Source: an uncultured Gammaproteobacteria bacterium (lineage in GTDB: Bacteria; Pseudomonadota; Gammaproteobacteria; PS1; Pseudothioglobaceae). Taken from it: 64,000 nucleotides of DNA. Within the stretch, counting starts at the first letter, position 1. Every line of letters begins with the position of its first letter. The translations under genes and the position numbers were made by a program. Below the pieces are notes generated by a model. It searched no databases. It had not been told where the DNA came from and saw only the letters and a program-made list of their open reading frames with translations. Of this stretch, positions 25,080 through 60,499 are shown in pieces. Location: assembly GCA_902512305.1 (NCBI GenBank), contig CABXIU010000005.1, positions 62,001 through 126,000 of the forward strand, in the 5' to 3' direction.

Positions 25080-26060
25080 ATGTTTGAAAATAAAACTATA
25101 CTTGTTACTGGAGGTACTGGCTCATTCGGGCACACCTTCATACCAATGACATTAGAGAAATTCAATCCTAAGAAGATAATTGTATTTTCCAGGGATGAGA
25201 TGAAACAATGGGAAATGGCTAAATTATATCAGGACGATGAAAGAATACGGTTTTTTATCGGAGACGTCAGAGATAAAGATAGGTTATATAGGGCTTTAGA
25301 TGGAGTGGACTATGTCGTCCATGCCGCCGCGATTAAAATTCTACCCACTGCGGAATATAATCCGTTTGAATGCGTAAAAACCAACATAAATGGTGCTATG
25401 AATGTTATAGATGCATGCATTGATAAAGGTGTTAAACATTGTGTTGCACTTTCTACTGATAAGGCAAGTAGTCCAGTTAACTTATATGGTGCTACAAAGT
25501 TGGCATCAGATAAACTATTCGTGGCTGGAAATGCCTATTCCGGAGAGCATAAGGCGAAATTTTCGGTAGTTAGATATGGGAATGTTATGGGTTCTCGAGG
25601 CTCAGTTATCCCATTTTTTAATCAAGTAAAAGTTAACGGATTTGTTCCAATTACAGATGTAGGAATGACCCGATTTATGATTTCTCTGGAGCAGAGTGTA
25701 GAGCTTGTTTGGCATGCATTTGAGGATATGATTGGAGGAGAAATTTATGTTAGAAAAATACCGTCTATGAAGATTATCGATTTGGCTTCTGTTGTTGCTC
25801 CAGGAGTGAAACAAAAGATTGTTGGAATTCGACCGGGTGAAAAAATGCATGAACAGATGATTAGTTTAGAAGATGCGGTGTCAACATACGAATACGCAAA
25901 TTGCTATAAAATTTTGCCGTTAATTCATAATTGGGCTGACGATGAGAGCAGAATAAAAGATGGGCAAAAGGTTCCAGAAGATTTTGTTTATGATAGTGAA
26001 ACAAACAAAGATTGGATGAGTCCTGATGATCTTAAAGATTGGTTGAAAAAAAATATATAA
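25080..26060 (+). CDS. pseB: UDP-N-acetylglucosamine 4,6-dehydratase (inverting), PseB
   Basis: First enzyme of pseudaminic-acid-type synthesis, making a UDP-4-keto-6-deoxy-L-AltNAc-type sugar from UDP-GlcNAc. TGGTGSFGHTF near residue 10 binds NADP, HAAAIKILPTAEYNPFE near residue 82 matches the PseB active site, and YGATKLASDK near residue 141 gives Tyr-x3-Lys. The C-terminal RPGEKMHE is also conserved. 326 aa is the family length. It opens the nonulosonic cassette, right after the IS footprint. A paralogue with Met in place of the catalytic Tyr lies at 57485. Confidence 0.9.
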   Translation: MFENKTILVTGGTGSFGHTFIPMTLEKFNPKKIIVFSRDEMKQWEMAKLYQDDERIRFFIGDVRDKDRLYRALDGVDYVVHAAAIKILPTAEYNPFECVKTNINGAMNVIDACIDKGVKHCVALSTDKASSPVNLYGATKLASDKLFVAGNAYSGEHKAKFSVVRYGNVMGSRGSVIPFFNQVKVNGFVPITDVGMTRFMISLEQSVELVWHAFEDMIGGEIYVRKIPSMKIIDLASVVAPGVKQKIVGIRPGEKMHEQMISLEDAVSTYEYANCYKILPLIHNWADDESRIKDGQKVPEDFVYDSETNKDWMSPDDLKDWLKKNI

Positions 26061-26137: not shown

Positions 26138-26824
26138 ATGAATGTGGCAATTATTCCAGCAAGAGGTGGTAGTAAGAGAATTCCAAGGAAAAATATTAAA
26201 TCCTTTTGCGGGAAGCCAATGATAGCCTGGGCTATAGAAGTTGCGAAGAAATCAGAGATATTTGATCACATAATCGTTTCAAGTGATGATTCAGAAATCA
26301 TTGAGATAGCTATCGAATGGGGTGCTGAAACTCCGTTTTTGAGACCTGAGCACCTTGCTGATGATCTCACTCCAACGGTGCCGGTTATCGCTCAAGCTGT
26401 TGAGGCTTGTCAGAGTATGGGTTGGTCAGTTGATAATGCTTGTTGTATCTATCCTAGTGTGCCTTTTTTAGAGTCGAATGATCTAATCATAGCTCGCGAT
26501 CTTCTTTATGAAACCCAGGCAAATTTTGTTTACCCTGTAGCTGAATACCCCCATCCAATACAAAGAGCAATGCGCCAGCGATCAAGTGGTCAAATGGAAT
26601 TTATTGATCCAAGCAGTGAGATGACTCGAACACAAGATTTAGAAACAACATTTCATGATGCTGGGCAGTTTTATTGGGGTAAAGCAACTGCTTGGCTTAA
26701 ACATAAAAAGATGCATTCGGATGCAATAGGCTTGGTGATTCCAAGTTGGAGAGTCGTTGATATAGATAATTTAGATGACTGGAAAAGAGCAGAGTTATTG
26801 AATGCAGTCCTCGAAATGGACTAA
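26138..26824 (+). CDS. pseF: Pseudaminic acid cytidylyltransferase (PseF)
   Basis: Activates a nonulosonic acid with CTP to its CMP form. AIIPARGGSKRIPRKN at residues 4-19 is the CMP-sialate-synthetase P-loop. YPHPIQRAM near residue 140 and FHDAGQFYWG near residue 173 are diagnostic of PseF rather than NeuA or KdsB. 228 aa is normal. It implies that the cluster ends in a CMP-linked nonulosonate. Confidence 0.9.
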   Translation: MNVAIIPARGGSKRIPRKNIKSFCGKPMIAWAIEVAKKSEIFDHIIVSSDDSEIIEIAIEWGAETPFLRPEHLADDLTPTVPVIAQAVEACQSMGWSVDNACCIYPSVPFLESNDLIIARDLLYETQANFVYPVAEYPHPIQRAMRQRSSGQMEFIDPSSEMTRTQDLETTFHDAGQFYWGKATAWLKHKKMHSDAIGLVIPSWRVVDIDNLDDWKRAELLNAVLEMD

Positions 26825-26838
26825 GATAGGCGTATCTC

Positions 26839-27711
26839 ATGAAAATTGTCGTTATTGGAGCATCAGGTTTATTAGGTTCTGTTTTGGTGCCAAAGTTGGA
26901 GCTAATCAGTAATGAAGTTATTACCCTTGGATGGTCAGCCTCAAATCACTATCGGTGCGATGTTGGTAATAGAGAATCAATCAATCATACGCTTGATATA
27001 TTAAAGCCGATTATCATAATAAATTTAGTAGCTTTAACTGATATAGATCTTTGTGAGTCTGATCCTAGGCAAGCATTCAAAGTTAATGTTCAGATTTTAG
27101 AAAATATTGTGAGTTGGATTGAAACGTCAAGTAGAATTTGTCATCTAGTGCAAATTTCAACAGATCATGTTTACGATGGTATGGGACCTCATCTGGAATC
27201 CCAGGTCATGTTAACTAATTATTATGCCTTTTCCAAATATGCTGCTGAGCTTGTGGCATTAAGAGTTTCTGCCACTGTTCTGAGAACAAACTTTTTTGGC
27301 AAGAGTAAGCGTGATAAAAAAGTGAGTTTTACAGATTGGATTATTAAAAACATTAAAGATAATGAATTTTTTTTCCTGTTTAATGATGTTTTTTTTAGTC
27401 CACTTTCAATGGAAACACTGGCTCAAATGATCTCTATAGTAATTACTGAGAAGCCCCAAGGAGTCTACAATTTGGGTTCTCGGGAAGGGTTAAGTAAATC
27501 TGCATTTGCTCTACTATTTGCAGATAAATTGAATCTTGAATCAAGCAATATGAAGGCTACATCAATTGATGATGTTACCTTCATGAAAACTTATAGACCC
27601 AAAGATATGCGTATGGACGTCACTAAGTTTGAGAAGCATTTGGGTGTTAGTTTGCCAACATTAGAAGATGAAATTGATAGTGTGATTGATGATTATTATG
27701 AAACAGCCTGA
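26839..27711 (+). CDS. RmlD-like SDR reductase
   Basis: NAD(P)-dependent reductase of the dTDP-4-dehydrorhamnose reductase family. GASGLLGSVLVPKL is the nucleotide-binding motif at residues 8-21. QISTDHVYDG near 110 has the catalytic Thr/Ser, and YYAFSKYAAE near 135 gives Tyr-x3-Lys. 290 aa. It lies between pseF and the synthase gene, overlapping the latter by 14 bases. It probably reduces a keto intermediate of the nonulosonate or a linked sugar; PseB-PseF pathways do not normally need it. Confidence 0.78.
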   Translation: MKIVVIGASGLLGSVLVPKLELISNEVITLGWSASNHYRCDVGNRESINHTLDILKPIIIINLVALTDIDLCESDPRQAFKVNVQILENIVSWIETSSRICHLVQISTDHVYDGMGPHLESQVMLTNYYAFSKYAAELVALRVSATVLRTNFFGKSKRDKKVSFTDWIIKNIKDNEFFFLFNDVFFSPLSMETLAQMISIVITEKPQGVYNLGSREGLSKSAFALLFADKLNLESSNMKATSIDDVTFMKTYRPKDMRMDVTKFEKHLGVSLPTLEDEIDSVIDDYYETA

Positions 27712-28777
27712 TCAAATACTAAAAATAAATGAGAAATTTATAGGAGATGATTTCCCTACATATTTTATTGCCGATGTAGCAGCTAATCATGATGGTGACA
27801 TAGCACGAGCTAAGGATCTTATTTATCTTGCGGCCGAAAAAGGGGCTGATGCAGTGAAGTTCCAGCATTTTTCAGCTGAAACTATCATAAGTGACAAAGG
27901 GTTTAGATCATTAAATACTGTTTCTTCACATCAATCGAAATGGAAGAAGTCAGTATTTGAGGTCTACAAGGATGCTAGCGTTGATCTGGCGTGGACTGAG
28001 GAGCTTAAAGATACCTGTAACAAAGCGGGAATTGCCTTCTTTACTAGTCCTTATTCCAAGGAATTACTAAATCATATTGATCCTTTTGTCCCTGCTCATA
28101 AGATTGGGTCAGGTGATATTACTTGGCTAGACATGATTCGGTTGATTGCCTCTAAGGGTAAGCCAACAATACTAGCATCTGGAGCATCATGTTTTGATGA
28201 TGTTACTCATGCCATGGATGCGGCTCTAGAGGTTAACTCGAAAATATGTTTAATGCAATGCAATACAAACTATACAGCTAGTTTAGAAAATTTTAAATAT
28301 ATTCAATTAAATGTATTAAAGGCCTATCGTCAAATGTATCCAACCCTTGTTTTAGGTTTAAGTGATCATACTCCAGGCTATACCACAGTGCTTGGAGCAG
28401 TCTCTTTAGGGGCTCGGATGATAGAGAAACATCTTACTGATAGCAATAATAGAGAAGGCCCTGACCATAAGTTTTCCATGAATGGTGATTCTTGGCAGGA
28501 GATGGTTGATAGAACTAGGGAGCTTGAAAATGCCCTCGGTGATGGTATTAAGCGTGTTGAGGAAAACGAGAAGGAAACTGTAATTTTACAGAGGAGAGCA
28601 GTTTGTTGTTCCAAGGATCTAGCTTTGGGGCATGTTCTAACTGATGCTGATTTAGATGTTCTAAGACCGTGTCCACCGGATGGAATTTCACCTCGTTATC
28701 GCAGTGATATGATAGGTAAATCTATAGTAAGAGATCTGAGTAAAGGGGAGAGTCTTAAATGGCAAGACCTAAGCTAG
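27698..28777 (+). CDS. N-acetylneuraminate/pseudaminate synthase family protein (NeuB/PseI-like)
   Basis: Condenses a 6-carbon amino sugar with phosphoenolpyruvate to a nonulosonic acid. The TIM barrel has ADVAANHDGD near residue 26, AVKFQHFSAETI near 53 and KIGSGDITW near 137. A C-terminal SAF (antifreeze-like) domain occupies the last ~65 residues (GHVLTDADLDVLRP). About 359 aa. It looks separate from classical NeuB and PseI (FQHFSAE instead of FQTxKxD/AQTYTPD). Start taken at ATG 27698; 27689 is also possible. Confidence 0.85.
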   Translation: MKQPDQILKINEKFIGDDFPTYFIADVAANHDGDIARAKDLIYLAAEKGADAVKFQHFSAETIISDKGFRSLNTVSSHQSKWKKSVFEVYKDASVDLAWTEELKDTCNKAGIAFFTSPYSKELLNHIDPFVPAHKIGSGDITWLDMIRLIASKGKPTILASGASCFDDVTHAMDAALEVNSKICLMQCNTNYTASLENFKYIQLNVLKAYRQMYPTLVLGLSDHTPGYTTVLGAVSLGARMIEKHLTDSNNREGPDHKFSMNGDSWQEMVDRTRELENALGDGIKRVEENEKETVILQRRAVCCSKDLALGHVLTDADLDVLRPCPPDGISPRYRSDMIGKSIVRDLSKGESLKWQDLS

Positions 28778-29463: not shown

Positions 29464-30447
29464 ATGGAAAAACTTAGTGTCCTCATAGTTGGTTGTGGAA
29501 ATATTGCTGGAGGCTTAGACTCAAATAAGATTGAAGATGGTCCCCCTTTGACACACGCAGGTGCGTTCACGTTAAGTCCAAATTTCAAGATTGTGGGTTG
29601 TGTAGATATTGATAAAGAAAAAAGTAAGAAATTTGCAGAGCTGTGGAATATTAATAACGCATACGTTAGTATGGAAGAGGCGCTTCAAGCGGACATTCAG
29701 TTTGATGTTATCAGTATATGCTGCCCAACCCAGTACCATAACTCTTATTTGAATGCCTGTCTATTGCTATCTCCTCAATTAATTTTTTGTGAAAAACCAT
29801 TAACAGATTCAGTAAAAAATACCAATAAAATAAAGACTGCTTGCGAACAAGCGGGTATTTTGCTAGCAGTAAACTATCTCAGACGATGGGATGAAAAAAT
29901 TATTAGGTTGAAGAAGGAAATTCAAGCTAATAAAAGAGGTTCATTGCGCTCTGTGGTGGGTTATTATAATAAAGGCATTTTGAACAATGGCTCTCACCTA
30001 ATTGATATTCTTCTTTTTCTTATCGGTGACATGAGGCTAAAACATGTCGGACAACCTAATTATGACTTCTTTCCAAATGACCCTTCAGTAAGCGTGACCC
30101 TAGAGGCTGGGTCCTCTGTTCCTGTGATACTTGTCCCTGGAGCAAAAGCGAGCGATTACAGTATTTTTGAAATACAGATGATTTTTGAAAAAGGTATGAT
30201 AACAATGTTTGATGGGGGTTTAAGATGGATTGAGAGACAAGTAGTGGATAGTGAAGTCTTCGATGGTTATCAAGTACTTGATTCAGGAAGTGAGAATAAG
30301 GGAGGTTATTTGGATACTATGTCAAATGCAGTCGATAACATATGGCGAGCACTATCTCAAGGAGATTCGCTCAATAGTTCTGGTGATACGGCAATAATTT
30401 CACAAAATTTATGTGAAAGAATTTTATTAGAGTCGAGGCTTCGTTAA
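29464..30447 (+). CDS. Gfo/Idh/MocA-family oxidoreductase
   Basis: NAD(P)-dependent sugar oxidoreductase of 327 aa. VLIVGCGNIAGGLDS at residues 6-20 binds the nucleotide. CEKPLTDSVKNT near residue 118 is the conserved Lys of the active site. The C-terminal domain has the usual alpha/beta arrangement with GSHLIDILLFL near residue 178. It precedes an aminotransferase by 53 bases; oxidation to a keto sugar before amination is the common pairing. Confidence 0.85.
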   Translation: MEKLSVLIVGCGNIAGGLDSNKIEDGPPLTHAGAFTLSPNFKIVGCVDIDKEKSKKFAELWNINNAYVSMEEALQADIQFDVISICCPTQYHNSYLNACLLLSPQLIFCEKPLTDSVKNTNKIKTACEQAGILLAVNYLRRWDEKIIRLKKEIQANKRGSLRSVVGYYNKGILNNGSHLIDILLFLIGDMRLKHVGQPNYDFFPNDPSVSVTLEAGSSVPVILVPGAKASDYSIFEIQMIFEKGMITMFDGGLRWIERQVVDSEVFDGYQVLDSGSENKGGYLDTMSNAVDNIWRALSQGDSLNSSGDTAIISQNLCERILLESRLR

Positions 30448-30500: not shown

Positions 30501-31784
30501 ATGGATAAGTTGGCGATTTTTGGAGGCTCCAAGGCTATTGAACGACCATTAAAACCATATAACTCGATAGGTGTTGAAGAAGCCGAAGCGGTTAAAAAGG
30601 TCATTGAGAGTGGTATTTTGTCCCGATATCTTGGTACTTGGAGTTCTGATTTTTATGGTGGTGATAAGGTTAAAGAATTTGAGCGTGATTGTGAGAAGTT
30701 CTTTAATGTTAAACATGCTGTTACAGTGAATTCTTGGACTTCTGGCCTTACTGCAGCAGTTGGAGCTGTTGGAATAGCTCCAGGCGATGAAGTGATTGTG
30801 ACCCCCTGGACAATGTGCGCTACTGCAACTGCTATATTACACTGGAATGCTATTCCGGTATTTGCGGATATTGACCCTCAAACCTTTAATATCGATCCAG
30901 CATCTGTTGAAGCCAACATAACTCCTTACACAAAGGCAATTATGGCAGTTGATATTTTTGGGCATCCCGCTGATGTTGATAGCCTGATGGAAATAGCAGA
31001 GCGCTACAATCTTAAACTTATAACTGACAGTGCGCAGGCTCCAGGTTCTTTTTATAAAGGCGCATTAACAGGAACTTCTAGTCATGTGGGTGGTTTTAGT
31101 CTCAATTATCACAAACATATTCATACCGGAGAAGGCGGTATTTTGGTGACCAATGATGATGAAATTGCAGATCGATTGCGTCTTATTCGTAATCATGCCG
31201 AGGCTGTTGTCGAAGGCATGGGTATCACCGACATCAACAACATGGTTGGACACAATTATCGGCTGGGTGAAATAGAGTGTGCAATTGGAATAGAGCAACT
31301 TAAAAAATTACCAAAACTAGTATTGGGGCGTCAGAAAGCGGCAGAACGATTAACGGGATGGCTAAGTAGTCTCCAGGGATTGCGAGCTCCTATCGTAATG
31401 CCTGAGTGCACTCATTCCTATTATATGTATCCAATGGTATTGGATATTGAAGTTCTTGGAATTCATAGGGCTAAAATAATCGAAGCATTGACTGCTGAAG
31501 GCGTTACAGGACTAACTGCGGGTTATGTTAACGTTCATCTTCTTCCAATGTATCAAAACAAAATAGCCTATGGATCAAATGGTTTCCCATGGTCATCAGA
31601 TATATGTAGAAGAGATGTGAGTTATAAAAAAGGTATATGCCCAGTAGCTGAGGAGCTGCATAGTTCAACCTATATGGGATTATCTGTTTGTATGCATGAT
31701 ATGAGTGAGATAGATGTAAAAAATATTGCAAATGCATTTTTAAAAGTTTGGAGTAACTTAGATTATCTGCGGGAAAGAAAGTAG
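30501..31784 (+). CDS. DegT/DnrJ/EryC1/StrS sugar aminotransferase
   Basis: PLP-dependent aminotransferase of 427 aa acting on keto sugars. GFSLNYHKHIHTGEGG near residue 205 carries the PLP-binding Lys, ITDSAQAPGS near 175 the Asp that contacts the PLP nitrogen, and NYRLGEIECAIG near 254 the closing motif. Longer than PseC (about 380) because of an N-terminal extension (AIFGGSKAIERPLKPYNSIG). It may act as the PseC step or with the neighbouring Gfo/Idh enzyme. Its stop overlaps the next GTG start. Confidence 0.88.
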   Translation: MDKLAIFGGSKAIERPLKPYNSIGVEEAEAVKKVIESGILSRYLGTWSSDFYGGDKVKEFERDCEKFFNVKHAVTVNSWTSGLTAAVGAVGIAPGDEVIVTPWTMCATATAILHWNAIPVFADIDPQTFNIDPASVEANITPYTKAIMAVDIFGHPADVDSLMEIAERYNLKLITDSAQAPGSFYKGALTGTSSHVGGFSLNYHKHIHTGEGGILVTNDDEIADRLRLIRNHAEAVVEGMGITDINNMVGHNYRLGEIECAIGIEQLKKLPKLVLGRQKAAERLTGWLSSLQGLRAPIVMPECTHSYYMYPMVLDIEVLGIHRAKIIEALTAEGVTGLTAGYVNVHLLPMYQNKIAYGSNGFPWSSDICRRDVSYKKGICPVAEELHSSTYMGLSVCMHDMSEIDVKNIANAFLKVWSNLDYLRERK

Positions 31785-32659
31785 TGATTAGTTCTAAAGA
31801 ATCCATTGGAGTTGTTTGTCATGATGCTGGGGGCGCTTATTTGGTATTATCGTTTTTAGCGCATCTTAGATCCAATCAACTGAAAGCATATGTTGAAGGC
31901 CCCGCTGTAGCTATTTTCAATAGTCTATTCTCCAATTTAAAACCAGAAAAAAATTTAAAATTTGCTTTTGATGAGATAGATATTTTGGTTTCAGGCACGG
32001 GTTGGGCTAGTGATCTTGAGCATGAGGCTCGAAAACTAGCGAGATCACGTGGCATTAGGTCGGTCGCCATAATTGACCATTGGACTAACTACGAAGAAAG
32101 GTTTATTCGTAATGGTGAGATAATTCATCCTGATGAAATTTGGGTGTGCGATTCTTACGCTTTTGAAATGGCACAAGTATTTTTCCCGGATTGCGTTATA
32201 AAACAGATAAGAAATTATTATCTAGATGATTTAGTAGGAGAAATAGCTTGTATATCAGAAGTTAATCCTCCGGAAATCCTTTATGTTGCAGAGCCTGCCA
32301 GAAGTACATGGGGGAAATCCGATTTAGGAGAGTTTCAGGCTCTAGAGTTCTTTAAAAGTAAATTCGACTTACTTGAGTTGCCGACAACTACAATTATTAA
32401 AATGCGAGCACATCCGTCAGATGAGATTGGTAAATATGATTCATGGATTGCAAAACAAAAGGACTTGAGATTTGTATTAGAAAAAAAAATAAATCTTCAG
32501 GAGTCTATAGCTAGGTCATCCATGGTGATTGGATGTGAATCTTTTGCTCTCGTAATAGCATTATTGGTGGGTAAAAAAGTTTTTTGTAGTTTACCGCCTT
32601 GGGCTCCAGTCTGTCGTCTTCCTCATGATGGGCTAATTCACTTGAAGAAATGGGAGTAA
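31784..32659 (+). CDS. Orphan GT-B-like protein in the nonulosonic cassette
   Basis: I cannot name this 291-residue protein. It begins IGVVCHDAGGAYLVLSFL, a Rossmann-like start with a Gly-Gly turn. It has VAIIDHWTNYEERF near residue 96, ILVSGTGW, IKMRAHPSDEIG near 206, and RSSMVIGCESFALVIALLVG near 243. The last segment is placed like the UDP-binding helix of GT-B enzymes such as PseG or MurG. The cassette lacks a recognisable UDP-sugar hydrolase (PseG), and this protein is a candidate. GTG start overlaps the aminotransferase stop; the next gene follows after 1 base. Confidence 0.55.
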   Translation: MISSKESIGVVCHDAGGAYLVLSFLAHLRSNQLKAYVEGPAVAIFNSLFSNLKPEKNLKFAFDEIDILVSGTGWASDLEHEARKLARSRGIRSVAIIDHWTNYEERFIRNGEIIHPDEIWVCDSYAFEMAQVFFPDCVIKQIRNYYLDDLVGEIACISEVNPPEILYVAEPARSTWGKSDLGEFQALEFFKSKFDLLELPTTTIIKMRAHPSDEIGKYDSWIAKQKDLRFVLEKKINLQESIARSSMVIGCESFALVIALLVGKKVFCSLPPWAPVCRLPHDGLIHLKKWE

Positions 32660-32660
32660 T

Positions 32661-33803
32661 GTGAAATATTGTATAAGATGTGTCCAACCTGACACTCGTC
32701 CAAATACTAAGTTTTCTCCTGAAGGAATTTGTCCAGCGTGTGCTTATTATGATGAGCTGAAAAAGGTTGACTGGCAAGAAAGATACGAAATCTTGCAGAG
32801 TGAATTAGCGCAATATAGGTCGCAACCTAATCAGATGTTTGACTGTATTATAGGCGTAAGTGGAGGGAAAGATAGTACGCGACAAGCCCTATGGGTTAGA
32901 GATAAGCTTAAATTAAAGCCTCTTTTAGTATCCCTTAGCTATCCTCCTGAGCAAATCACAAATCGTGGAACAGACAACATCTCAAATTTGATTGAACTAG
33001 GGTTTGACGTCATAATATCTGCACCTGCGCCCCAGACTTGGCGGAATTTGATGCGCGAATCTTTTTTAAAGTTTACAAACTGGGCCAAATCTACAGAGTT
33101 AGCACTATTCTCTTCAGTTCCACAAATGGCTATAAGGTACAAAATTCCACTAATCCTTTGGGGAGAAAATCCTGGATTACAACTTGGTGATATGAAGTCA
33201 TTAGGTAAAAATGGTTATGATGGTAATAATCTTAGACATCTAAATACTCTTTCTGGTGCTCAATCTGATTGGATGAATGGTGTTGTCGCCAACGAACAAA
33301 ATCTAATTCCATATATATATCCTTCGGAAAAGGAGTTTATCGCCAACAATATTAAAATTATCTATCTTGGTTGGTTTTTGGGCGACTGGTCTCATAAAAA
33401 CAATAGCGCATATTCAGTTTTAAGTGGGCTGGATATTCGAGGAGATGATAAGTTAGACTCGGTCGAAAATACTGGCGATCTTCATAGATCAACTTCACTA
33501 GATGAAAACTGGGTTACCCTTAATCAATTAATAAAATACTACAAATTTGGCTTTGGTAGAGTGACCGATTATTTGAGCGAGGATATACGGTTGGGAAGGT
33601 TATCAAGAAATGATGCTATAGAGCTAGTTAATCGATATGACTCTTCATGCAGTGAAGAGTTCATTCATACTTTCACCGATTATATTGGGATATCTGTGCA
33701 GGATTTTTGGAAAGTTATTCACTCCTCTCTTAATAAAGATTTATTTGATATCAATCATAATGGAGTGATAACATCCAAGTTCATAGTTGGAGTTGGATTA
33801 TGA
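32661..33803 (+). CDS. N-acetyl sugar amidotransferase (PseA/WbuX/WbpG family), copy 1
   Basis: Converts an N-acetyl to an acetamidino group using ammonia from a HisH/HisF-type glutaminase. Two CxxC pairs (C4/C7 and C24/C27) look like a zinc ribbon. GVSGGKDSTRQA near residue 63 is the ATP-pyrophosphatase P-loop that adenylates the substrate. GENPGL and YPSEKEF are typical of the family. 380 aa. GTG start with GGGAG upstream. It is coupled to hisH (4-base overlap). A second family member lies at 35161. Confidence 0.88.
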   Translation: MKYCIRCVQPDTRPNTKFSPEGICPACAYYDELKKVDWQERYEILQSELAQYRSQPNQMFDCIIGVSGGKDSTRQALWVRDKLKLKPLLVSLSYPPEQITNRGTDNISNLIELGFDVIISAPAPQTWRNLMRESFLKFTNWAKSTELALFSSVPQMAIRYKIPLILWGENPGLQLGDMKSLGKNGYDGNNLRHLNTLSGAQSDWMNGVVANEQNLIPYIYPSEKEFIANNIKIIYLGWFLGDWSHKNNSAYSVLSGLDIRGDDKLDSVENTGDLHRSTSLDENWVTLNQLIKYYKFGFGRVTDYLSEDIRLGRLSRNDAIELVNRYDSSCSEEFIHTFTDYIGISVQDFWKVIHSSLNKDLFDINHNGVITSKFIVGVGL

Positions 33804-34414
33804 GAAAGGTTTCTATTGGTATAGTAGATTCTGGTATTGGCAATGTATCGTCTCTATATTCTGCACTGAGTATTTTGGGTTATTCGGTAAGGGTTACTGA
33901 TGATCCGTCACTTTTAGATTTAGTTGACATAATGGCTCTTCCTGGCGTGGGGGCCTTTCCAGCTGTTATGAAAATTTATGACTCTAATGGCATTAGTGAC
34001 TACATCAAGTCTGCCGCTGATAAAGATAGGCCCATTATTGGTATTTGCCTAGGAATGCAGTTATTAACAGACTCATCTGAGGAATCTAATTCGTTTAAGG
34101 GGCTTGGTTTAATTCCTGGCAAAGTAGTTCGTATTAGTAATTCTAGGTGGCATATAGGATGGAATACTCTTAAATCGAGTGGTCAATCTGAATTTTTAAA
34201 AAGTGATATGGGGTCTACTGTATATTTTAATCATGGTTTTCAGTATCAAGGAGATCTTGATTATCATGTTGCGGTGGTTGATTATTTTGATGAGATCCCG
34301 GCTATTATCAAATATAGAAATTTGATTGGTTTTCAATTTCATCCTGAGAAAAGCCAGGATGCTGGAAGATATATTTTGCAGAATACTATTGAGGAACTTA
34401 TGAATGCTAAATAA
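33800..34414 (+). CDS. hisH: HisH-type glutamine amidotransferase of the sugar amidination system (WbuY-like)
   Basis: Class I glutaminase of 204 aa that releases ammonia from glutamine. The triad is complete: C83 in GICLGMQLL, and H181 and E183 in FQFHPEK. The N-terminal IGIVDSGIGNVSSLYSAL is HisH-like. Sitting between two sugar amidotransferases and coupled to a HisF paralogue, it most likely serves acetamidino-sugar formation rather than histidine synthesis. No other his genes are in the window. Confidence 0.88.
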   Translation: MRKVSIGIVDSGIGNVSSLYSALSILGYSVRVTDDPSLLDLVDIMALPGVGAFPAVMKIYDSNGISDYIKSAADKDRPIIGICLGMQLLTDSSEESNSFKGLGLIPGKVVRISNSRWHIGWNTLKSSGQSEFLKSDMGSTVYFNHGFQYQGDLDYHVAVVDYFDEIPAIIKYRNLIGFQFHPEKSQDAGRYILQNTIEELMNAK

Positions 34415-35189
34415 AAGAATTATTGGGGTTGTGACCGTTAGAGGTGGTTGGGCTGTTCAGTCCTTTGGGTATAAATCTTATTTGCCTCTGGGTAAGCCCG
34501 AGGTTTTGGTTGAAAATCTGGATAGATGGGGTGCCGATGAAATTCTAGTCAATGTGATTGATCGATCTTCCAAAAAATTGGGCCCAGATTTCAATTTAAT
34601 TGGGAAAATTGCAGACTTAGGTGTTTCTACTCCCATTATTTATGGTGGTGGAATTAGAAATGAAAATGACGGTATTAATGTTGTTCAAAGAGGTGCAGAT
34701 AGAATTTCTATAAATAATATGCTCTTTGAAAGCCAAGACTCTGTTTGTAAAATTTCAGATAATCTTGGTTCTCAGGCGATTATAGCGTCCTTGCCATTAT
34801 CTTTTATAGATGGGCAACTGCAACATTATAATTATATTACTAGAAAGTCAGTAGATATAAGTAGTGAAATAATAGCCCTTTTTAGGACCAAAATTGTATC
34901 AGAATTAATGATTTCAGATTGGATGAATGAAGGCTCATTAGATAGATTTAATATTGATTTAATTAAAAGTAGGGAGCTTATAGGCTCGAAATTAATAGCA
35001 TTTGGTGGTGCTGGAGATCCTCGAGTTGGTAAAAAAATCATGGAATATAATAATGTTTCAGCAGTAGCTATTGGTAATCCTTTTTCATATAAAGAGCATG
35101 CGATTCAAAATTATAGTAATCAACTAAACGCTGATTTTCTAAGACCCCCATACTTTAGAGATGAACTCACTTATGATTGGAATCAATAA
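34404..35189 (+). CDS. wbuZ: HisF paralogue acting as ammonia channel (WbuZ-like)
   Basis: TIM-barrel protein of 261 aa homologous to imidazole glycerol phosphate synthase cyclase. Compared with Thermotoga HisF, the two catalytic aspartates are gone: position 11 is Thr (RIIGVVTVRGG) and position 131 is Pro (SLPLSFIDG). The ammonia-gate residues remain as R5, E46, R100 (for Lys) and E167. It therefore should channel ammonia but not make the histidine intermediate, as proposed for WbuZ proteins. It overlaps hisH by 11 bases and the next amidotransferase by 29. Confidence 0.88.
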   Translation: MLNKRIIGVVTVRGGWAVQSFGYKSYLPLGKPEVLVENLDRWGADEILVNVIDRSSKKLGPDFNLIGKIADLGVSTPIIYGGGIRNENDGINVVQRGADRISINNMLFESQDSVCKISDNLGSQAIIASLPLSFIDGQLQHYNYITRKSVDISSEIIALFRTKIVSELMISDWMNEGSLDRFNIDLIKSRELIGSKLIAFGGAGDPRVGKKIMEYNNVSAVAIGNPFSYKEHAIQNYSNQLNADFLRPPYFRDELTYDWNQ

Positions 35190-36417
35190 ATTGCAGACTT
35201 GCACTAAATGTTTGTATACCAGCGACCATCCTTTGGGTTTAGTATTTGATGATGAGGGTGTTTGCTCTGGTTGCAGAGTCCATGAAGAAAAAGATCTTTT
35301 AGATTGGAATTCCCGTTTAGATGATTTAAAAAGTTTGAGTGCCCCATATAAATCTAAAACTGGGAAGAATTATGATTGTATAGTCCCTGTATCTGGTGGA
35401 CAGGACTCATATTTTATACTCCACGTAGTTAAAAATATATTGAAGCTTAATCCATTATTAGTGTCTTATAATAAGTACTTTAATACTCGGTTAGGCATAA
35501 GAAACCTGGCCAATCTGAGAATAAAGTTTGACTGCGATATTCTTATCAAAAATGTAAATCCTAAATCTGTAAAAAACATCACTCGACACACCTTAAGAAA
35601 ATATGGAAATATGTATTGGCCTATTTTAGCAGGTCATTCCGTATTTCCAGTTCAAGTCGCCGTAAGCCATAAAATTCCTCTAATAATATGGGGTGCGCAT
35701 CAAGGTATTGAGCAAGTCGGCATGTTTTCACACTTAAATGATGTTGAAATGTCTCGGCGGTATAGAAAAGATCATGACCTTTTTGGAGTTGAAGCAGATG
35801 GTTTGCTCGATATATTTGACAATCTTAACGAAGAAGATGTTTGGCAATATAGGTATCCATCAGATACTGATATTCATGAGGTAGGTGTAAGAGGGATATA
35901 TATAGGAAACTATATAAGGTGGGACCCAAAGGCACAGCACGAGAAAATGATTAGAATGTACGATTATAGAACGGACAAATTTACGAGAACATTTGATAAA
36001 TATGACTATGTAGATTGTTTTAACTATATGCAAATACACGATCAGTTAAAATATTATAAGTGTGGTTTCTCTAAGGTCACTGATCATGCTTGCAGAGAAA
36101 TTAGACATGGCCGCATTACCCGATCTGATGCTCTAAACGCCGTTAATTATTATTCGAATCTTGGATTTGATAATATTGAGTTATTTGCAGCATGGTTGGG
36201 TACTACGAGCAACTCAATTAAGTTTGTAATGGATATGCATAGAAATCCTATATATTGGAATGAAAGATCTCCTCAGGTCTGGGAATATACCAAACCAGAA
36301 AATAATCTTCATAGCATAGATTCGCTAGATATATCTGATGAGCTTGACTTTCTTGACAACTCGTATGAAGGAAGCAATAAAGAAAAATATATTACAATAG
36401 GAAAAGGATATCCTTAA
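35161..36417 (+). CDS. N-acetyl sugar amidotransferase (PseA/WbuX/WbpG family), copy 2
   Basis: Second amidotransferase in the same module, 418 aa. Cys pairs C14/C17 and C35/C38 repeat the zinc-ribbon pattern of copy 1. PVSGGQDSYF near residue 76 is the P-loop, with Gln in place of the Lys of copy 1. WGAHQGIEQ and YPSDTDIHE correspond to the family motifs. It has a C-terminal extension of about 40 residues rich in Asp and Glu. The clear divergence from copy 1 suggests a different acceptor. Start at 35161 overlaps wbuZ by 29 bases; ATG 35173 is an alternative. Confidence 0.87.
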   Translation: MNSLMIGINKLQTCTKCLYTSDHPLGLVFDDEGVCSGCRVHEEKDLLDWNSRLDDLKSLSAPYKSKTGKNYDCIVPVSGGQDSYFILHVVKNILKLNPLLVSYNKYFNTRLGIRNLANLRIKFDCDILIKNVNPKSVKNITRHTLRKYGNMYWPILAGHSVFPVQVAVSHKIPLIIWGAHQGIEQVGMFSHLNDVEMSRRYRKDHDLFGVEADGLLDIFDNLNEEDVWQYRYPSDTDIHEVGVRGIYIGNYIRWDPKAQHEKMIRMYDYRTDKFTRTFDKYDYVDCFNYMQIHDQLKYYKCGFSKVTDHACREIRHGRITRSDALNAVNYYSNLGFDNIELFAAWLGTTSNSIKFVMDMHRNPIYWNERSPQVWEYTKPENNLHSIDSLDISDELDFLDNSYEGSNKEKYITIGKGYP

Positions 36418-56338: not shown

Positions 56339-57485
56339 AGTTCTTACTTTCAATCATCATTACTATCCTGGCTATAAATCAGGGGGTGCATTGAGAACAA
56401 TTGTAAATATGGTCGAACAGATCGGTAATAATATCCAATTTAATATTGTCACATCAGACAGAGATCTTGGAGACTTTAAAGCTTATAGTGGCATCAAAAT
56501 TAATCGATGGCATAAAGTAGGTAATGCTAATGTTTATTACAAGAATGAAGTGAGTTCTTTCTTTGAATTAATCAAAATTATTAACAATGCGGATTATGAC
56601 CTGGTTTATTTGAATAGTTTCTTCGACTATAATTATTCCATCAAAATTTTATTATGCTTACGATTAATAAAATCAAACAAGAAAATAATTATAGCGCCTA
56701 GAGGAGAATTTTCGAAAGGTGCCATGAATATCAAAAAGCACAGAAAAAAGCTATTTCTGATATTAGCTAGGGTTTCTAGAATATATAATAATGTGCTTTG
56801 GCAGGCGTCATCTCAGTATGAGAAGGGCGATATTGAAAGCATCTGTATGCCTGGAAGAGTGGCTATAGTGCCTGATATGCCCCCTATGCCAGTTAGCTAT
56901 TTTGATAACACTAGAAAAAAAGTAGATGGACAACTGAAATTATGCTTTATTTCTCGAATAAGCAGAATAAAGAACCTCGATTTTGCATTAAAGGTATTAT
57001 CTGAATTGGATATTCATGTTGAGTTTGATATATACGGACCGATTGAGGATGAATCCTACTGGTCTGAATGTAAATTGCTTATAGACAATATTTCAAACGA
57101 TGTCATCATTCGTTATTGTGGATTAATTAATCATAATGATGTGATTGATGTTTTTGGAGAATATGACTTGTTCTTTTTTCCTTCTCATGGAGAGAATTAT
57201 GGTCATATTATTTTGGAGTCAATGATATCAGGCACGCCTGCGTTAATTTCCGATATGACCCCTTGGACCAATTTTGAAAGTCATGGTATTGGTTGTGTTT
57301 CATCTTTGAATAATCGATGTAAATTTGCTGATTATATTAAGCATATTTATTCTATGAATGCGACTGAGTATTCTGATTTGAGAGAGAGAGTAAATCAATA
57401 TGCTATTAGTGTTTTAAGTGACAGGTCTGTAAAAGAGAAAAATATACAACTGTTTTCTAATGAAAAATCTAAGGTATCTTTGTAA
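56331..57485 (+). CDS. Family 4 glycosyltransferase
   Basis: 384 aa. FNHHYYPGYKSGGALRTIVNMV near the N-terminus is the acceptor loop (YKSGGxxR is common in GT4 from O-antigen clusters). APRGEFSKGAMNIKKHRKK near residue 122 and FISRISRIKNLDFAL near 212 follow. FPSHGENYGHIILESMISG near 283 is the EX7E motif. Overlaps the next gene by one base (TAATG). Confidence 0.86.
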   Translation: MVEVLTFNHHYYPGYKSGGALRTIVNMVEQIGNNIQFNIVTSDRDLGDFKAYSGIKINRWHKVGNANVYYKNEVSSFFELIKIINNADYDLVYLNSFFDYNYSIKILLCLRLIKSNKKIIIAPRGEFSKGAMNIKKHRKKLFLILARVSRIYNNVLWQASSQYEKGDIESICMPGRVAIVPDMPPMPVSYFDNTRKKVDGQLKLCFISRISRIKNLDFALKVLSELDIHVEFDIYGPIEDESYWSECKLLIDNISNDVIIRYCGLINHNDVIDVFGEYDLFFFPSHGENYGHIILESMISGTPALISDMTPWTNFESHGIGCVSSLNNRCKFADYIKHIYSMNATEYSDLRERVNQYAISVLSDRSVKEKNIQLFSNEKSKVSL

Positions 57486-58507
57486 TGTTTGATAATAAAA
57501 TATTATTAATTACTGGAGGTACAGGTTCATTTGGTAATGCTGTACTGAAGAAATTTTTGACTACAGACGTTAAAGAGGTGCGTATTTTTTCTAGAGATGA
57601 GCTTAAGCAAGATGATATGAGAAGGTTTTACAATAACGATAAAGTTAAATTCTATATTGGCGATGTCAGAGATAAATACTCAACTGATGATGCAATGAGG
57701 GGAGTTGATTATGTTTTCCATGCGGCTGCACTTAAGCAAGTACCATCGTGCGAGTTTTATCCAATGCAGGCAGTTAAAACTAACATTATTGGTACTGAAA
57801 ATTTATTAAATTCAGCTATTTTAGCTGGTGTTAAAAAAGTTATTGCACTGAGTACAGATAAAGCGGTTTATCCAATAAATGCAATGGGCATCAGTAAGGC
57901 TATGATGGAAAGAGTGATTGTATCAAAAGGTAGAAATGTAAAAGACACTATGATTGCTTGTACTAGATATGGCAACGTGATGGCTAGTCGTGGTTCGGTT
58001 ATTCCGTTATTTATCGATCAGGTAAGGAATGGAAAGCCTATAACTATTACAGATCCTAATATGACCAGATTTATGATGACTCTAGATCAGGCTGTAGATT
58101 TGGTGTTATTTGCATTTGACAAAGGACAGAGCGGTGATATTTTTGTGCAGAAAGCTCCCGCTGCAACTATTGAATTACTTGCTAATACTATGAAAAATGT
58201 TCTAGGTGTCCCTGACCACAAAGTGAAAACTATTGGTACAAGGCATGGTGAGAAACTGTACGAAACTTTACTGACGAAAGAGGAAATGTTGAAAGCAATT
58301 GATATGGGTGATTATTATCGTATTCCAGCTGATACAAGAGATCTAAACTATAACCAGTTTTTTGAAGAGGGTGAAGAGGTTGCTAAAGAAGCAGGTGAAT
58401 ACCATTCCCACAATACCAGCAGACTGAATGAGGAGGAGTTGACAGAGTTGCTGTTGAGTATTAGAGAGATTCAGGACGATTTAAAGGGGTTCAAGAAAAA
58501 TGGATAA
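57485..58507 (+). CDS. fnlA: UDP-GlcNAc 4,6-dehydratase/5-epimerase (FnlA/WbjB/CapE-like)
   Basis: 340 aa. LITGGTGSFGNAVLKKF near residue 7 binds NAD(P), and FHAAALKQVPSCEFYPMQAVKTN near 78 has the active-site Lys. MGISKAMMERV near residue 138 carries Met where most SDRs have Tyr, exactly as in CapE/FnlA. It makes a UDP-4-keto-6-deoxy-L-hexosamine, the entry to L-FucNAc, L-RhaNAc or L-QuiNAc. It overlaps the epimerase gene by 8 bases. Confidence 0.9.
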   Translation: MFDNKILLITGGTGSFGNAVLKKFLTTDVKEVRIFSRDELKQDDMRRFYNNDKVKFYIGDVRDKYSTDDAMRGVDYVFHAAALKQVPSCEFYPMQAVKTNIIGTENLLNSAILAGVKKVIALSTDKAVYPINAMGISKAMMERVIVSKGRNVKDTMIACTRYGNVMASRGSVIPLFIDQVRNGKPITITDPNMTRFMMTLDQAVDLVLFAFDKGQSGDIFVQKAPAATIELLANTMKNVLGVPDHKVKTIGTRHGEKLYETLLTKEEMLKAIDMGDYYRIPADTRDLNYNQFFEEGEEVAKEAGEYHSHNTSRLNEEELTELLLSIREIQDDLKGFKKNG

Positions 58508-59636
58508 GCTGAAGGTAATGACTATTGTAGGCACTAGGCCGGAAATCATTAAGCTTAGTCAAGTAATGAAAGAGCTGGATCGACATGTAGATCATACAAT
58601 AGTTCATACTGGTCAGAATTATGATTATGAACTAAATGAATTATTCTTTGAACAGTTAGATATTAGAAAGCCTGATATCTTCTTGGAGGCTCTTAAAGGT
58701 ACGCCATCAGAAACTATTGGAGATATTATTGCAAAGGCCGATAAGGTCTTTGATGAAATGCAGCCGGATGCCTTATTAATTTATGGAGATACCAACAGTT
58801 GTTTAAGTGTTATTCCTGCAAAGAGGAGAAAGATACCAATCTTTCATATGGAGGCGGGTAATCGATGTTTTGACCAAAGAGTTCCAGAAGAAGTTAATAG
58901 AAAAATTGTAGATCATTTGAGTGATATCAACCTACCTCTTTCCGAACATGCAAGAGATTACTTGATTGCAGAAGGCATTAAACCTGAAACAATTATTAAA
59001 ACTGGTTCGCCGATGACAGAAGTTTTAACTGTCAATATGGAAAAGATTAAATCTAGCGATATTCTAGTAAGAGAAGGGCTAAAGCCAAAAGCATATATTG
59101 TTATGAGTATCCATAGAGAAGAAAATGTTGACTCGCCTAAAAACTTTAGTGACTTACTTGAATCAATTGATGAGCTGGCTAAGAAATATAAAATGCCAAT
59201 TATTATTTCTACACACCCAAGAACAAAAAAGAAATTGGAAGATATTGACTACCAAAACAAGAATCCCTTAATTAGATTCTCGAAGCCTTATGGTTTTCAT
59301 GAGTATAACAACCTGCAAATGAATGCATTTTGTGTGATTTCAGATAGTGGAACTATTGCTGAAGAGGGGTCAATACTGAATTTACCTGCTGTCACAATAC
59401 GCCAGGCGCACGAAAGACCTGAAGGTATGGATGAAACAACTGTAATCATGTCCGGTTTGAATAAGACTAGAGTTATTCATGCAGTTGAAGTTGCAACAGG
59501 TCATAATTCGCAAGATATTAGAGCTATAAAGCCTGTCAAAGATTACGAAGTTGATAATGTCTCTAAAAAGATCTTAAGAATCATCTTGTCATATGTTGAT
59601 TATGTAAACAGAACTGTCTGGAATAAAGAGGTATAG
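58500..59636 (+). CDS. fnlC: UDP-N-acetylglucosamine 2-epimerase family (FnlC/WbjD/CapG/WbvD-like)
   Basis: Non-hydrolysing 2-epimerase of 378 aa. IVGTRPEIIKLSQVMKEL near residue 8 is the signature. VHTGQNYDYELNELFFEQL and HMEAGNRCFDQRVPEEVNRK near 118 are characteristic of the group acting on 6-deoxy-hexosamines. SDSGTIAEEGSILNLPA near 281 closes the active site. Here it sits before, not after, the reductase gene. It completes UDP-L-FucNAc or UDP-L-QuiNAc. Confidence 0.88.
   Translation: MDKLKVMTIVGTRPEIIKLSQVMKELDRHVDHTIVHTGQNYDYELNELFFEQLDIRKPDIFLEALKGTPSETIGDIIAKADKVFDEMQPDALLIYGDTNSCLSVIPAKRRKIPIFHMEAGNRCFDQRVPEEVNRKIVDHLSDINLPLSEHARDYLIAEGIKPETIIKTGSPMTEVLTVNMEKIKSSDILVREGLKPKAYIVMSIHREENVDSPKNFSDLLESIDELAKKYKMPIIISTHPRTKKKLEDIDYQNKNPLIRFSKPYGFHEYNNLQMNAFCVISDSGTIAEEGSILNLPAVTIRQAHERPEGMDETTVIMSGLNKTRVIHAVEVATGHNSQDIRAIKPVKDYEVDNVSKKILRIILSYVDYVNRTVWNKEV
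59628..59631 (+). promoter_or_regulatory. Ribosome-binding site deciding a TTG start
   Basis: GAGG, 7 bases before the TTG at 59639, inside the end of the epimerase gene, supports that TTG as the start of the reductase. Confidence 0.45.
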
Positions 59637-59638
59637 TT

Positions 59639-60499
59639 TTGTATAAGACTCTTGTTCTTGGCTCTGCAGGTTTAATAGGTCATCAGGTTTATAATTATTT
59701 GAATGATAGCAATAATTATGAGCTATACAATATATCATATCGAAATAAATTTCAAGATGATACAATCTTGTTAGATGCCAGAGATGAGAAACATTTTATT
59801 GATAAAGTAATAAGTATCAGACCACATTACATTATTAACTGTATGGGTATTTTGATTAATGGATCAGACAAAGATCCTGAAAATGCTATCTTTCTCAACT
59901 CATATATGCCGCATAGATTGGCCAGACTGGCAGATAAAATTAATGCAAAATTAATCCATATATCAACTGACTGCGTTTTCTCAGGTGACAAGAAAGGACC
60001 GTATGTTGAAACTGATGAGAAGGATGGAAGAGGTATATATGCCAAAACTAAAGGGCTCGGGGAAGTTGTTAATAACAAGCACCTTACTTTAAGAACCTCG
60101 GTTGTAGGTCCTGAATTAAAAACTGATGGAGAGGAATTGTTTCATTGGTTTATGAGTCAAAAAAGTGACATTTCTGGTTTTACTAAAGCGATTTGGTCAG
60201 GTGTTACTTCAATAGAGCTTGCAAAGGCTGTTAAGTGGGCAATTGATAATGAAGTAACAGGCTTATACCATGTGACTAATAACTCTTCAATTAGTAAGTA
60301 TGACCTTCTTAAATTGTTCCAAAAGTATACAAAAAAAGATATTAGCATTAGGCCAGTGTATGGAAAAAATGTCGATAAGAGTTATATTGATACTAGATTA
60401 TTAATGAACTACGAAATCCCATCTTACGATCAAATGATTTCTAATATGGTTAGTTTGATTTCTGACAACGTGACACTGTATTCCCAATATAAACTATGA
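59639..60499 (+). CDS. RmlD-like reductase for L-hexosamine synthesis (WbvR-like)
   Basis: 286 aa SDR. VLGSAGLIGHQVYNYL near residue 6 binds the cofactor, LIHISTDCVFSGDKKGPYVE near 101 holds the catalytic Thr, and GIYAKTKGLGEVV near 128 has Tyr-x3-Lys. FnlB/WbjC/CapF reductases of the L-FucNAc pathway are about 370 aa with a C-terminal cupin domain; that domain is absent here. This favours the RmlD-like WbvR branch leading to UDP-L-QuiNAc. Stop overlaps the next start (ATGA). Confidence 0.78.
   Translation: MYKTLVLGSAGLIGHQVYNYLNDSNNYELYNISYRNKFQDDTILLDARDEKHFIDKVISIRPHYIINCMGILINGSDKDPENAIFLNSYMPHRLARLADKINAKLIHISTDCVFSGDKKGPYVETDEKDGRGIYAKTKGLGEVVNNKHLTLRTSVVGPELKTDGEELFHWFMSQKSDISGFTKAIWSGVTSIELAKAVKWAIDNEVTGLYHVTNNSSISKYDLLKLFQKYTKKDISIRPVYGKNVDKSYIDTRLLMNYEIPSYDQMISNMVSLISDNVTLYSQYKL

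Follow-up and report, generated by a model that had tools for sequence, protein, structure and literature searches.

In Pseudomonas aeruginosa O5, amidine formation draws on ammonia that passes from HisH through HisF, and one amidotransferase is involved; the WbuX/WbuY/WbuZ system of Escherichia coli O145 has one amidotransferase as well. Here we compare these and related systems with a group of four genes from an uncultured gammaproteobacterium (contig CABXIU010000005.1, positions 62,001 to 126,000, a stretch of 64,000 nucleotides hereafter called the window), in which two WbuX-family amidotransferases, A1 and A2, accompany a single pair of a HisH-type glutaminase and a HisF-like protein. The P. 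aeruginosa O5 system (WbpG/HisH2/HisF2, for ManNAc3NAmA) has three protein families in common with this module, but WbpG acts on a uronic-acid amino sugar and not on a nonulosonate (PMC10607449; articles are cited here by PMC number). That of E. coli O145, for L-FucNAm, is the founding one of the WbuX family, whose model both copies in the window pass; the substrate of its WbuX is L-FucNAc (PMC10607449), and the HisF-like protein of the window fails the WbuZ cut-off. The WbuX family, its PP-loop SGGXDS and its zinc tetracysteine were already known (PMC10607449).

Campylobacter jejuni resembles the window in having two nonulosonate amidotransferases and apparently one neighbouring HisH/HisF pair. 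In strain 11168 a mutant of PseA (Cj1316) is without Pse5Ac7Am, and a PtmG (Cj1324) mutant is without the Leg5Am forms and also without Pse5Ac7Am (PMC4195440); HisH (Cj1315c) and HisF (Cj1314c) have neighbouring locus numbers and are assigned by the authors to histidine synthesis (PMC12102941). The differences are that PtmG stands apart from the pair by its locus number and that PseA and PtmG belong to the Pse and Leg pathways, a comparison made on locus numbers and pathways. Two amidotransferases with one pair also occur at four other, non-orthologous loci of our survey (L038, L097, L104 and L106). The preliminary description of the window held that known systems use one amidotransferase per HisH/HisF pair, which is doubtful in view of these cases, and the two-amidotransferase arrangement as such is therefore not unique. 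The partnership of A1 with A2, a co-inherited pair between which conserved residues are split, with the residue signature that results, was not found described in the open-access literature.

The only solved relative found is LpNASAT of Legionella pneumophila (PDB 8WEX), which has the fold, PP-loop and tetracysteine of A1 and A2 (Foldseek query template modelling, TM, scores of 0.73-0.82) at an identity of only 23-24%. Unlike A1 or A2, it holds SGGKDS, the GE motif and a second Glu in one chain. The reading that we favour, with a confidence that falls a little short of calling it probable, is that the four genes form a conserved amidination module in which A1 and A2 would act jointly, as an obligate pair, on one nonulosonic acid.

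The four-gene module in the window

The genes follow one another on the plus strand in the order A1, HisH, HisF-like, A2, every one overlapping its neighbour (Table 1). Both A1 and A2 clear the cut-off of the WbuX model TIGR03573 (203.2 bits), as does HisH that of TIGR01855 (105.4 bits). The arrangement, the lengths of the two amidotransferases and their P-loops, as given in the preliminary description, are thus borne out by the open reading frames and profile scores. A1 and A2 share 31% identity; the PP-loop reads SGGKDS in A1 and SGGQDS in A2, and each has two CxxC pairs, the tetracysteine. AlphaFold2 models of A1 (predicted local distance difference test, pLDDT, 93.1) and A2 (pLDDT 87.5) both have 8wex as their top PDB match, with a TM score of 0.82 for A1. 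The HisH carries the GICLG Cys motif and the HPE motif. Beyond A1 and A2, no WbuX-family protein above cut-off was found in the assembly, which is 89.6% complete.

Recurrence and joint inheritance

A search of a species-genome collection with A2, biased accordingly towards A2, yielded eight loci (L008-L015) from Flavobacteriaceae, another member of the Bacteroidetes, Rubrivivax, Flavobacterium, Rhizobium, Prochlorococcus and two Thalassospira. All four genes are present in each, in the order A1-HisH-HisF-A2 at six loci and HisH-HisF-A2-A1 in both Thalassospira, and exactly two WbuX proteins, the pair itself, are encoded by each of the seven whole genomes carrying L008-L014. When sought in other genomes, as the preliminary description had proposed, the four-gene order thus recurs across phyla and is mostly the same, so that the association of a single glutaminase/channel pair with two copies that are divergent and yet well conserved represents a real system. 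The same recurrence rules out a chance neighbourhood of the four genes. Plasmid or phage carriage of the module was rejected: when plasmids were searched by tblastn with A1 and A2, the matches were family members at no more than 21-32% identity, and phages gave no match to A1.

For a broader sample, genomes scoring above the TIGR03573 cut-off were collected from the phylum of the window (41 of 398 genomes), the phyla of L008 (54 of 395) and L013 (26 of 292), the class of L014 (78 of 385) and the family of L008 (11 of 397), these five samples overlapping somewhat. Genes were located with hidden Markov models built from the window proteins and their matches, not with curated models. In the three phylum samples all above-cut-off places were taken except one incomplete place, which was dropped; most places below the family cut-off were left out of the L008 and L013 phyla. 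Stretches covered about 53 of 110 places (hand count) in the class of L014, where, as in the family of L008, loci with two matches lying close together were taken first. The rest of the places in that class and eight genomes of that family were queried with A2 only and may hold A1-only loci. Family-wide searches supplied L043, L091-L093, L096, L175, L176, L178, L180, L181 and the G411 copy (L039). The Thalassospira near-copies L015 and L039 and WbuX pieces shorter than 250 amino acids were dropped.

In the resulting tree of 222 WbuX-family proteins (Pseudomonadota, Bacteroidota and Cyanobacteriota), the A1 clade has 16 members and the A2 clade 15, or 18 with L043, L180 and L181 (support 1.0; 100/100 in a careful 76-row tree). 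Aligned orthologs are 36-67% identical to the A1 of the window and 45-61% to its A2. An A2 lies in the same gene run as every A1 (16/16), and every A2 adjoins a second amidotransferase (18/18), which is A1 in 16 cases. The three fully covered samples contain eight A1 and eight A2, always together (the window, G411, L008, L013, L091, L092, L093 and L096), two of these pairs lying in genomes round which the samples were drawn. No A2 was recognised in 51 further genomes checked with the A2 query, where the best match was 41% identical and fell outside the clade on the tree and the rest reached at most 37%, compared with at least 45% for clade members; tree placement here covered the two best matches.

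Distances between the proteins of 12 loci tell the same story of common inheritance. The matrices of A1, A2, HisH and HisF correlate with r of 0.60-0.88, and in each of the six comparisons none of 5000 permutations gave a correlation as high. In larger trees the main subgroups of A1 and A2 match, and these subgroups mix phyla, from which we infer that the four-gene set is transferred horizontally as a unit. A1 and A2 fall into separate supported groups (95/96 with 42 rows, 99/97 with 29 rows), and a recent tandem duplication is therefore rejected; they are old, separate lineages.

Old lineages that are both nonulosonate-linked (see below), and copies that are both conserved across phyla, also accord with a different explanation, in which two regiospecific amidotransferases, served by one HisH/HisF, would act successively on the same nonulosonic acid to give a bis-amidino sugar. 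Two successive amidinations would explain the A1-A2 partnership nearly as well as a heteromer, and we consider them possible without expecting them. It tells against them that, in the loci examined, members of both clades always had a second amidotransferase beside them, though the sugars named in the available parts of the literature are mono-amidino, and that nothing relevant on bis-amidino nonulosonates was found in open-access literature.

Several arrangements of the family met in the survey are recorded here in their own right. L180 (6608-13201) carries three amidotransferases and two HisH/HisF pairs in the run WbuX-HisH-HisF-A1-HisH-HisF-A2. Two complete WbuX/HisH/HisF sets, with one WbuX from each of the family halves described below, are found at L037, L041, L105 and L109. 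WbuX domains occur within long frames of 635-805 amino acids, possibly fusions, at L042, L060 and L067, and a WbuX with no HisH or HisF found within 6 kb in the stretch fetched at L155, L156, L162, L165 and L066.

Residues lost from A1 and from A2

The reference state was taken from the 188 family members outside A1 and A2, 183 of which hold the two PP-loop glycines, the Asp and a second acidic residue together. This last residue, an observation of our own and not a curated criterion, lies a few positions past the Glu of the WGE motif. The site holds Glu or Asp in all but one of the 188 proteins (187) and in all 18 A2 (8 Glu, 10 Asp); the acidic residue is absent from all 16 A1, which have Gln, Ala, Ser, Thr or Arg instead; in the window, Q174 of A1 aligns with E183 of A2. 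SGGKDS is intact in all 16 A1. The A2 clade has lost other positions. In the A2 of the window, Ala178 replaces the WGE Glu and Gln80 the PP-loop Lys; clade-wide, the Glu is lost in 18/18 (Ala or Val) and the Lys in 17/18, whereas both are kept in 103/103 other proteins of the nonulosonate half and in 16/16 A1. The second PP-loop Gly, kept in the window, is lost in 12 of the 18 A2, which is odd for an ATP-driven enzyme and speaks against two separate, successive amidinations. At 12 of 16 A1-A2 pairs neither copy has the full reference set of both glycines, Asp and second acidic residue. The core A2 share a fixed motif, WGAHQG (15/15), and A1 is marked by GEN or GES without a following acidic residue. 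In a clade-by-clade control within the nonulosonate half, the most losses of any clade, four, fell to A2, counted over columns with a conservation of at least 90% in the rest of that half.

Missing catalytic residues, to which the preliminary description looked as a sign that one copy is inactive, thus concern both copies in part, A1 lacking one conserved residue and A2 two. It could be supposed that a single copy does all the work, as an ordinary WbpG/HisH2/HisF2-type system, and that its neighbour is dead or vestigial, given that A1 lacks a residue so nearly invariant elsewhere and that most A2 have lost the PP-loop Gly. We consider this very improbable: both window copies are full length and keep the tetracysteine, with confidently folded models, three phyla have kept the pair, and A2 has a fixed motif of its own.

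That the two are such strict partners and divide the conserved residues between them is best explained if A1 and A2 act as one amidotransferase, of which they are perhaps the subunits. The observed gene order, co-occurrence, correlated evolution, split residue loss and membership of the nonulosonate half would fit a scheme in which the complex, the identity of the sugar, the route of the ammonia and the division of labour are as follows. HisH would split glutamine, releasing ammonia, and the HisF-like barrel would pass it on. A1 and A2, as one amidotransferase, would then convert an N-acetyl to an acetamidino group at the cost of ATP, the substrate being a nonulosonate that is CMP-activated or still a precursor. 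A1 would give the intact ATP-binding PP-loop, binding and splitting ATP, and A2 a complementary function. Stated in full, this becomes an obligate heteromer of two ancient paralogous lineages, with the ATP signature in one subunit and the acidic residue in the other, seated on HisH and HisF, with a barrel that in the window's subgroup is purely a pipe for ammonia, and a cassette of four genes spreading between phyla; all these elements taken together are conceivable, but we would not count on them.

A number of observations weigh against the obligate pair. The window itself is among the 4 of 16 pairs whose A2 is complete by the standard of glycines, Asp and acidic residue, a state kept by 6 of the 18 A2, and its A2 could therefore be a full enzyme. 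In the other half of the family the PP-loop Lys is present in only 18/85 proteins and the WGE Glu likewise in 18/85, so that these losses need not kill activity. L209 and L215, outside both clades, have Asn at the second acidic site in the sole WbuX of the stretch. The clade-by-clade control showed no column lost by A1 at the 90% threshold, because the second site is 88% Glu and Asp is counted as a change. At L043, whose genome belongs to the same genus as the window, and at L181, the partner of A2 is a complete non-A1 amidotransferase directly downstream. Finally, LpNASAT is a homodimer with a poorly conserved interface (PMC10607449).

The sugar, the barrel and the surrounding genes

A tree of 173 proteins splits the family in two halves, of which one, containing both A1 and A2, is linked to nonulosonates: a NeuB or PseF-like gene lies within 6 kb in 72 of its 106 rows, compared with 4 of the 67 rows that make up the other. 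A nonulosonic acid is likely to be the substrate of both A1 and A2. The pair loci add little, a further point against our reading; NeuB or PseF-like genes occur in the fetched stretch at 12/18 of them and at 79/167 other WbuX loci, even though the mostly longer flanks at pair loci favour these counts. This enrichment was set aside as weak, and the nonulosonate link therefore rests on the split between family halves and not on the pair. PseB-like, aminotransferase, NeuB and PseF-like genes are found together at L091, L092 and L096 besides the window. A DegT protein close to that of the window (at least 220 bits) occurs at 11/18 pair loci and 3/167 others (Fisher p 6e-11), a count likewise favoured by the longer flanks.

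Amidines on nonulosonic acids have been reported both for legionaminic acid, as Leg5Am7Ac, and for pseudaminic acid, in a form written Pse5Ac7Am in PMC4195440 and Pse5Am7Ac in PMC3958885. Known nonulosonic acids also include an 8-amino form, from Flexibacter maritimus (PMC3210612). These reports, and the DegT subfamily at the pair loci, are in favour of successive amidination, with N5 and N7 among the conceivable targets, or else an extra amine from the Gfo/Idh/MocA and DegT genes.

An FnlABC-like set (Polysacc_synt_2, UDP-GlcNAc 2-epimerase and RmlD-like) lies at 57485-60499 and suggests that L-FucNAc is also part of the window's polysaccharide. Together with the L-FucNAc substrate of E. coli O145 WbuX (PMC10607449) and the two C. 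jejuni amidotransferases for two nonulosonates (PMC4195440), it lends some support to a scheme in which A1 and A2 amidinate two sugars of one polysaccharide, such as a nonulosonate and L-FucNAc, from a shared source of ammonia. We regard this as improbable. FnlA, B and C are not best matches in the fetched stretches of L008-L014 (at most about 8 kb per side), the nonulosonate-linked half contains the two clades, and co-occurrence is complete for A1 and A2 alike. The proposal of the preliminary description that the copies amidinate different sugars is not favoured on these grounds, neither clade having been found without a second amidotransferase.

The HisF-like protein has WbuZ as its nearest model and yet does not reach its cut-off (299.7 bits); it also scores below those of AglZ-HisF2 (91.0 bits, cut-off 310) and the HisF cyclase (73.9 bits, cut-off 294.55). 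Its likeness to amidation-associated HisF is one of gene context only. In the numbering of Thermotoga maritima HisF, where we take Asp11 and Asp130 to be catalytic and R5, E46 and E167 to form the ammonia gate, the window protein has D11T, D51V, K99R and D130P and retains R5, E46 and E167. D51V/C, K99R and D130P with the three gate residues kept are found in the HisF-like proteins of 7/18 pair loci, of which the window is one. In a comparison set of 138 other HisF-like proteins, position 99 is Lys in 136 and position 130 is Asp, Glu or Gln in 136, with two gaps in each case. With the cyclase residues gone, cyclase activity is hardly to be expected of the barrel in this subgroup, where it probably only carries ammonia; a canonical HisF is present elsewhere in the assembly.

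Table 1. Genes of the amidination module and its upstream neighbours in the window
Feature	Position	Strand	Size and evidence
PseB, UDP-GlcNAc 4,6-dehydratase (inverting)	25080-26060	+	TIGR03589 528.1 bits, cut-off 407.75
PseF, CMP-pseudaminate cytidylyltransferase	26138-26824	+	TIGR03584 287.3 bits, cut-off 205.7
NeuB-type nonulosonate synthase	27686-28777	+	PF03102 226.4 bits
Gfo/Idh/MocA dehydrogenase	29464-30447	+	PF01408 68.5 bits
DegT-type sugar aminotransferase, PseC-like	30501-31784	+	PseC 225.2 bits, below cut-off 423.5
291 aa (amino acid) protein, family not recognised	31784-32659	+	between DegT aminotransferase and A1
A1, WbuX-family N-acetyl sugar amidotransferase, copy 1	32661-33803	+	380 aa, TIGR03573 285.4 bits
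HisH-type glutaminase, predicted ammonia source	33800-34414	+	204 aa, TIGR01855 177.1 bits
HisF-like putative ammonia-channel protein	34404-35189	+	261 aa, WbuZ 109.7 bits
A2, WbuX-family amidotransferase, copy 2	35161-36417	+	418 aa, TIGR03573 302.2 bits

Of the pseudaminic acid models, PseB and PseF are thus above cut-off in the window and PseC and PseI below. The NeuB-type synthase falls below both of the specific cut-offs, with 257.0 bits for NnaB and 229.7 bits for PseI (cut-off 340.25). The Gfo/Idh/MocA dehydrogenase, homologues of which are also found near the module at other loci, is the probable partner of the DegT aminotransferase. The 291 amino-acid protein had no match in NCBIfam, Pfam or PDB sequences; distant relatives lie near the module at L008-L011, and of three that were scanned two have a match to PF04464 (GT-B type), so that it may be a GT-B type glycosyltransferase. 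An RmlD-like protein and a glycosyltransferase are also encoded upstream of A1.

The WGAHQG motif of the core A2, with GEN or GES lacking the acidic residue in A1, provides a signature by which annotators can recognise the module. Amidine groups add positive charge to otherwise acidic bacterial surface sugars, and since such a co-inherited pair was not found described in the open-access literature, the module would represent a new route to this modification, by way of either a two-subunit enzyme or a bis-amidino sugar.

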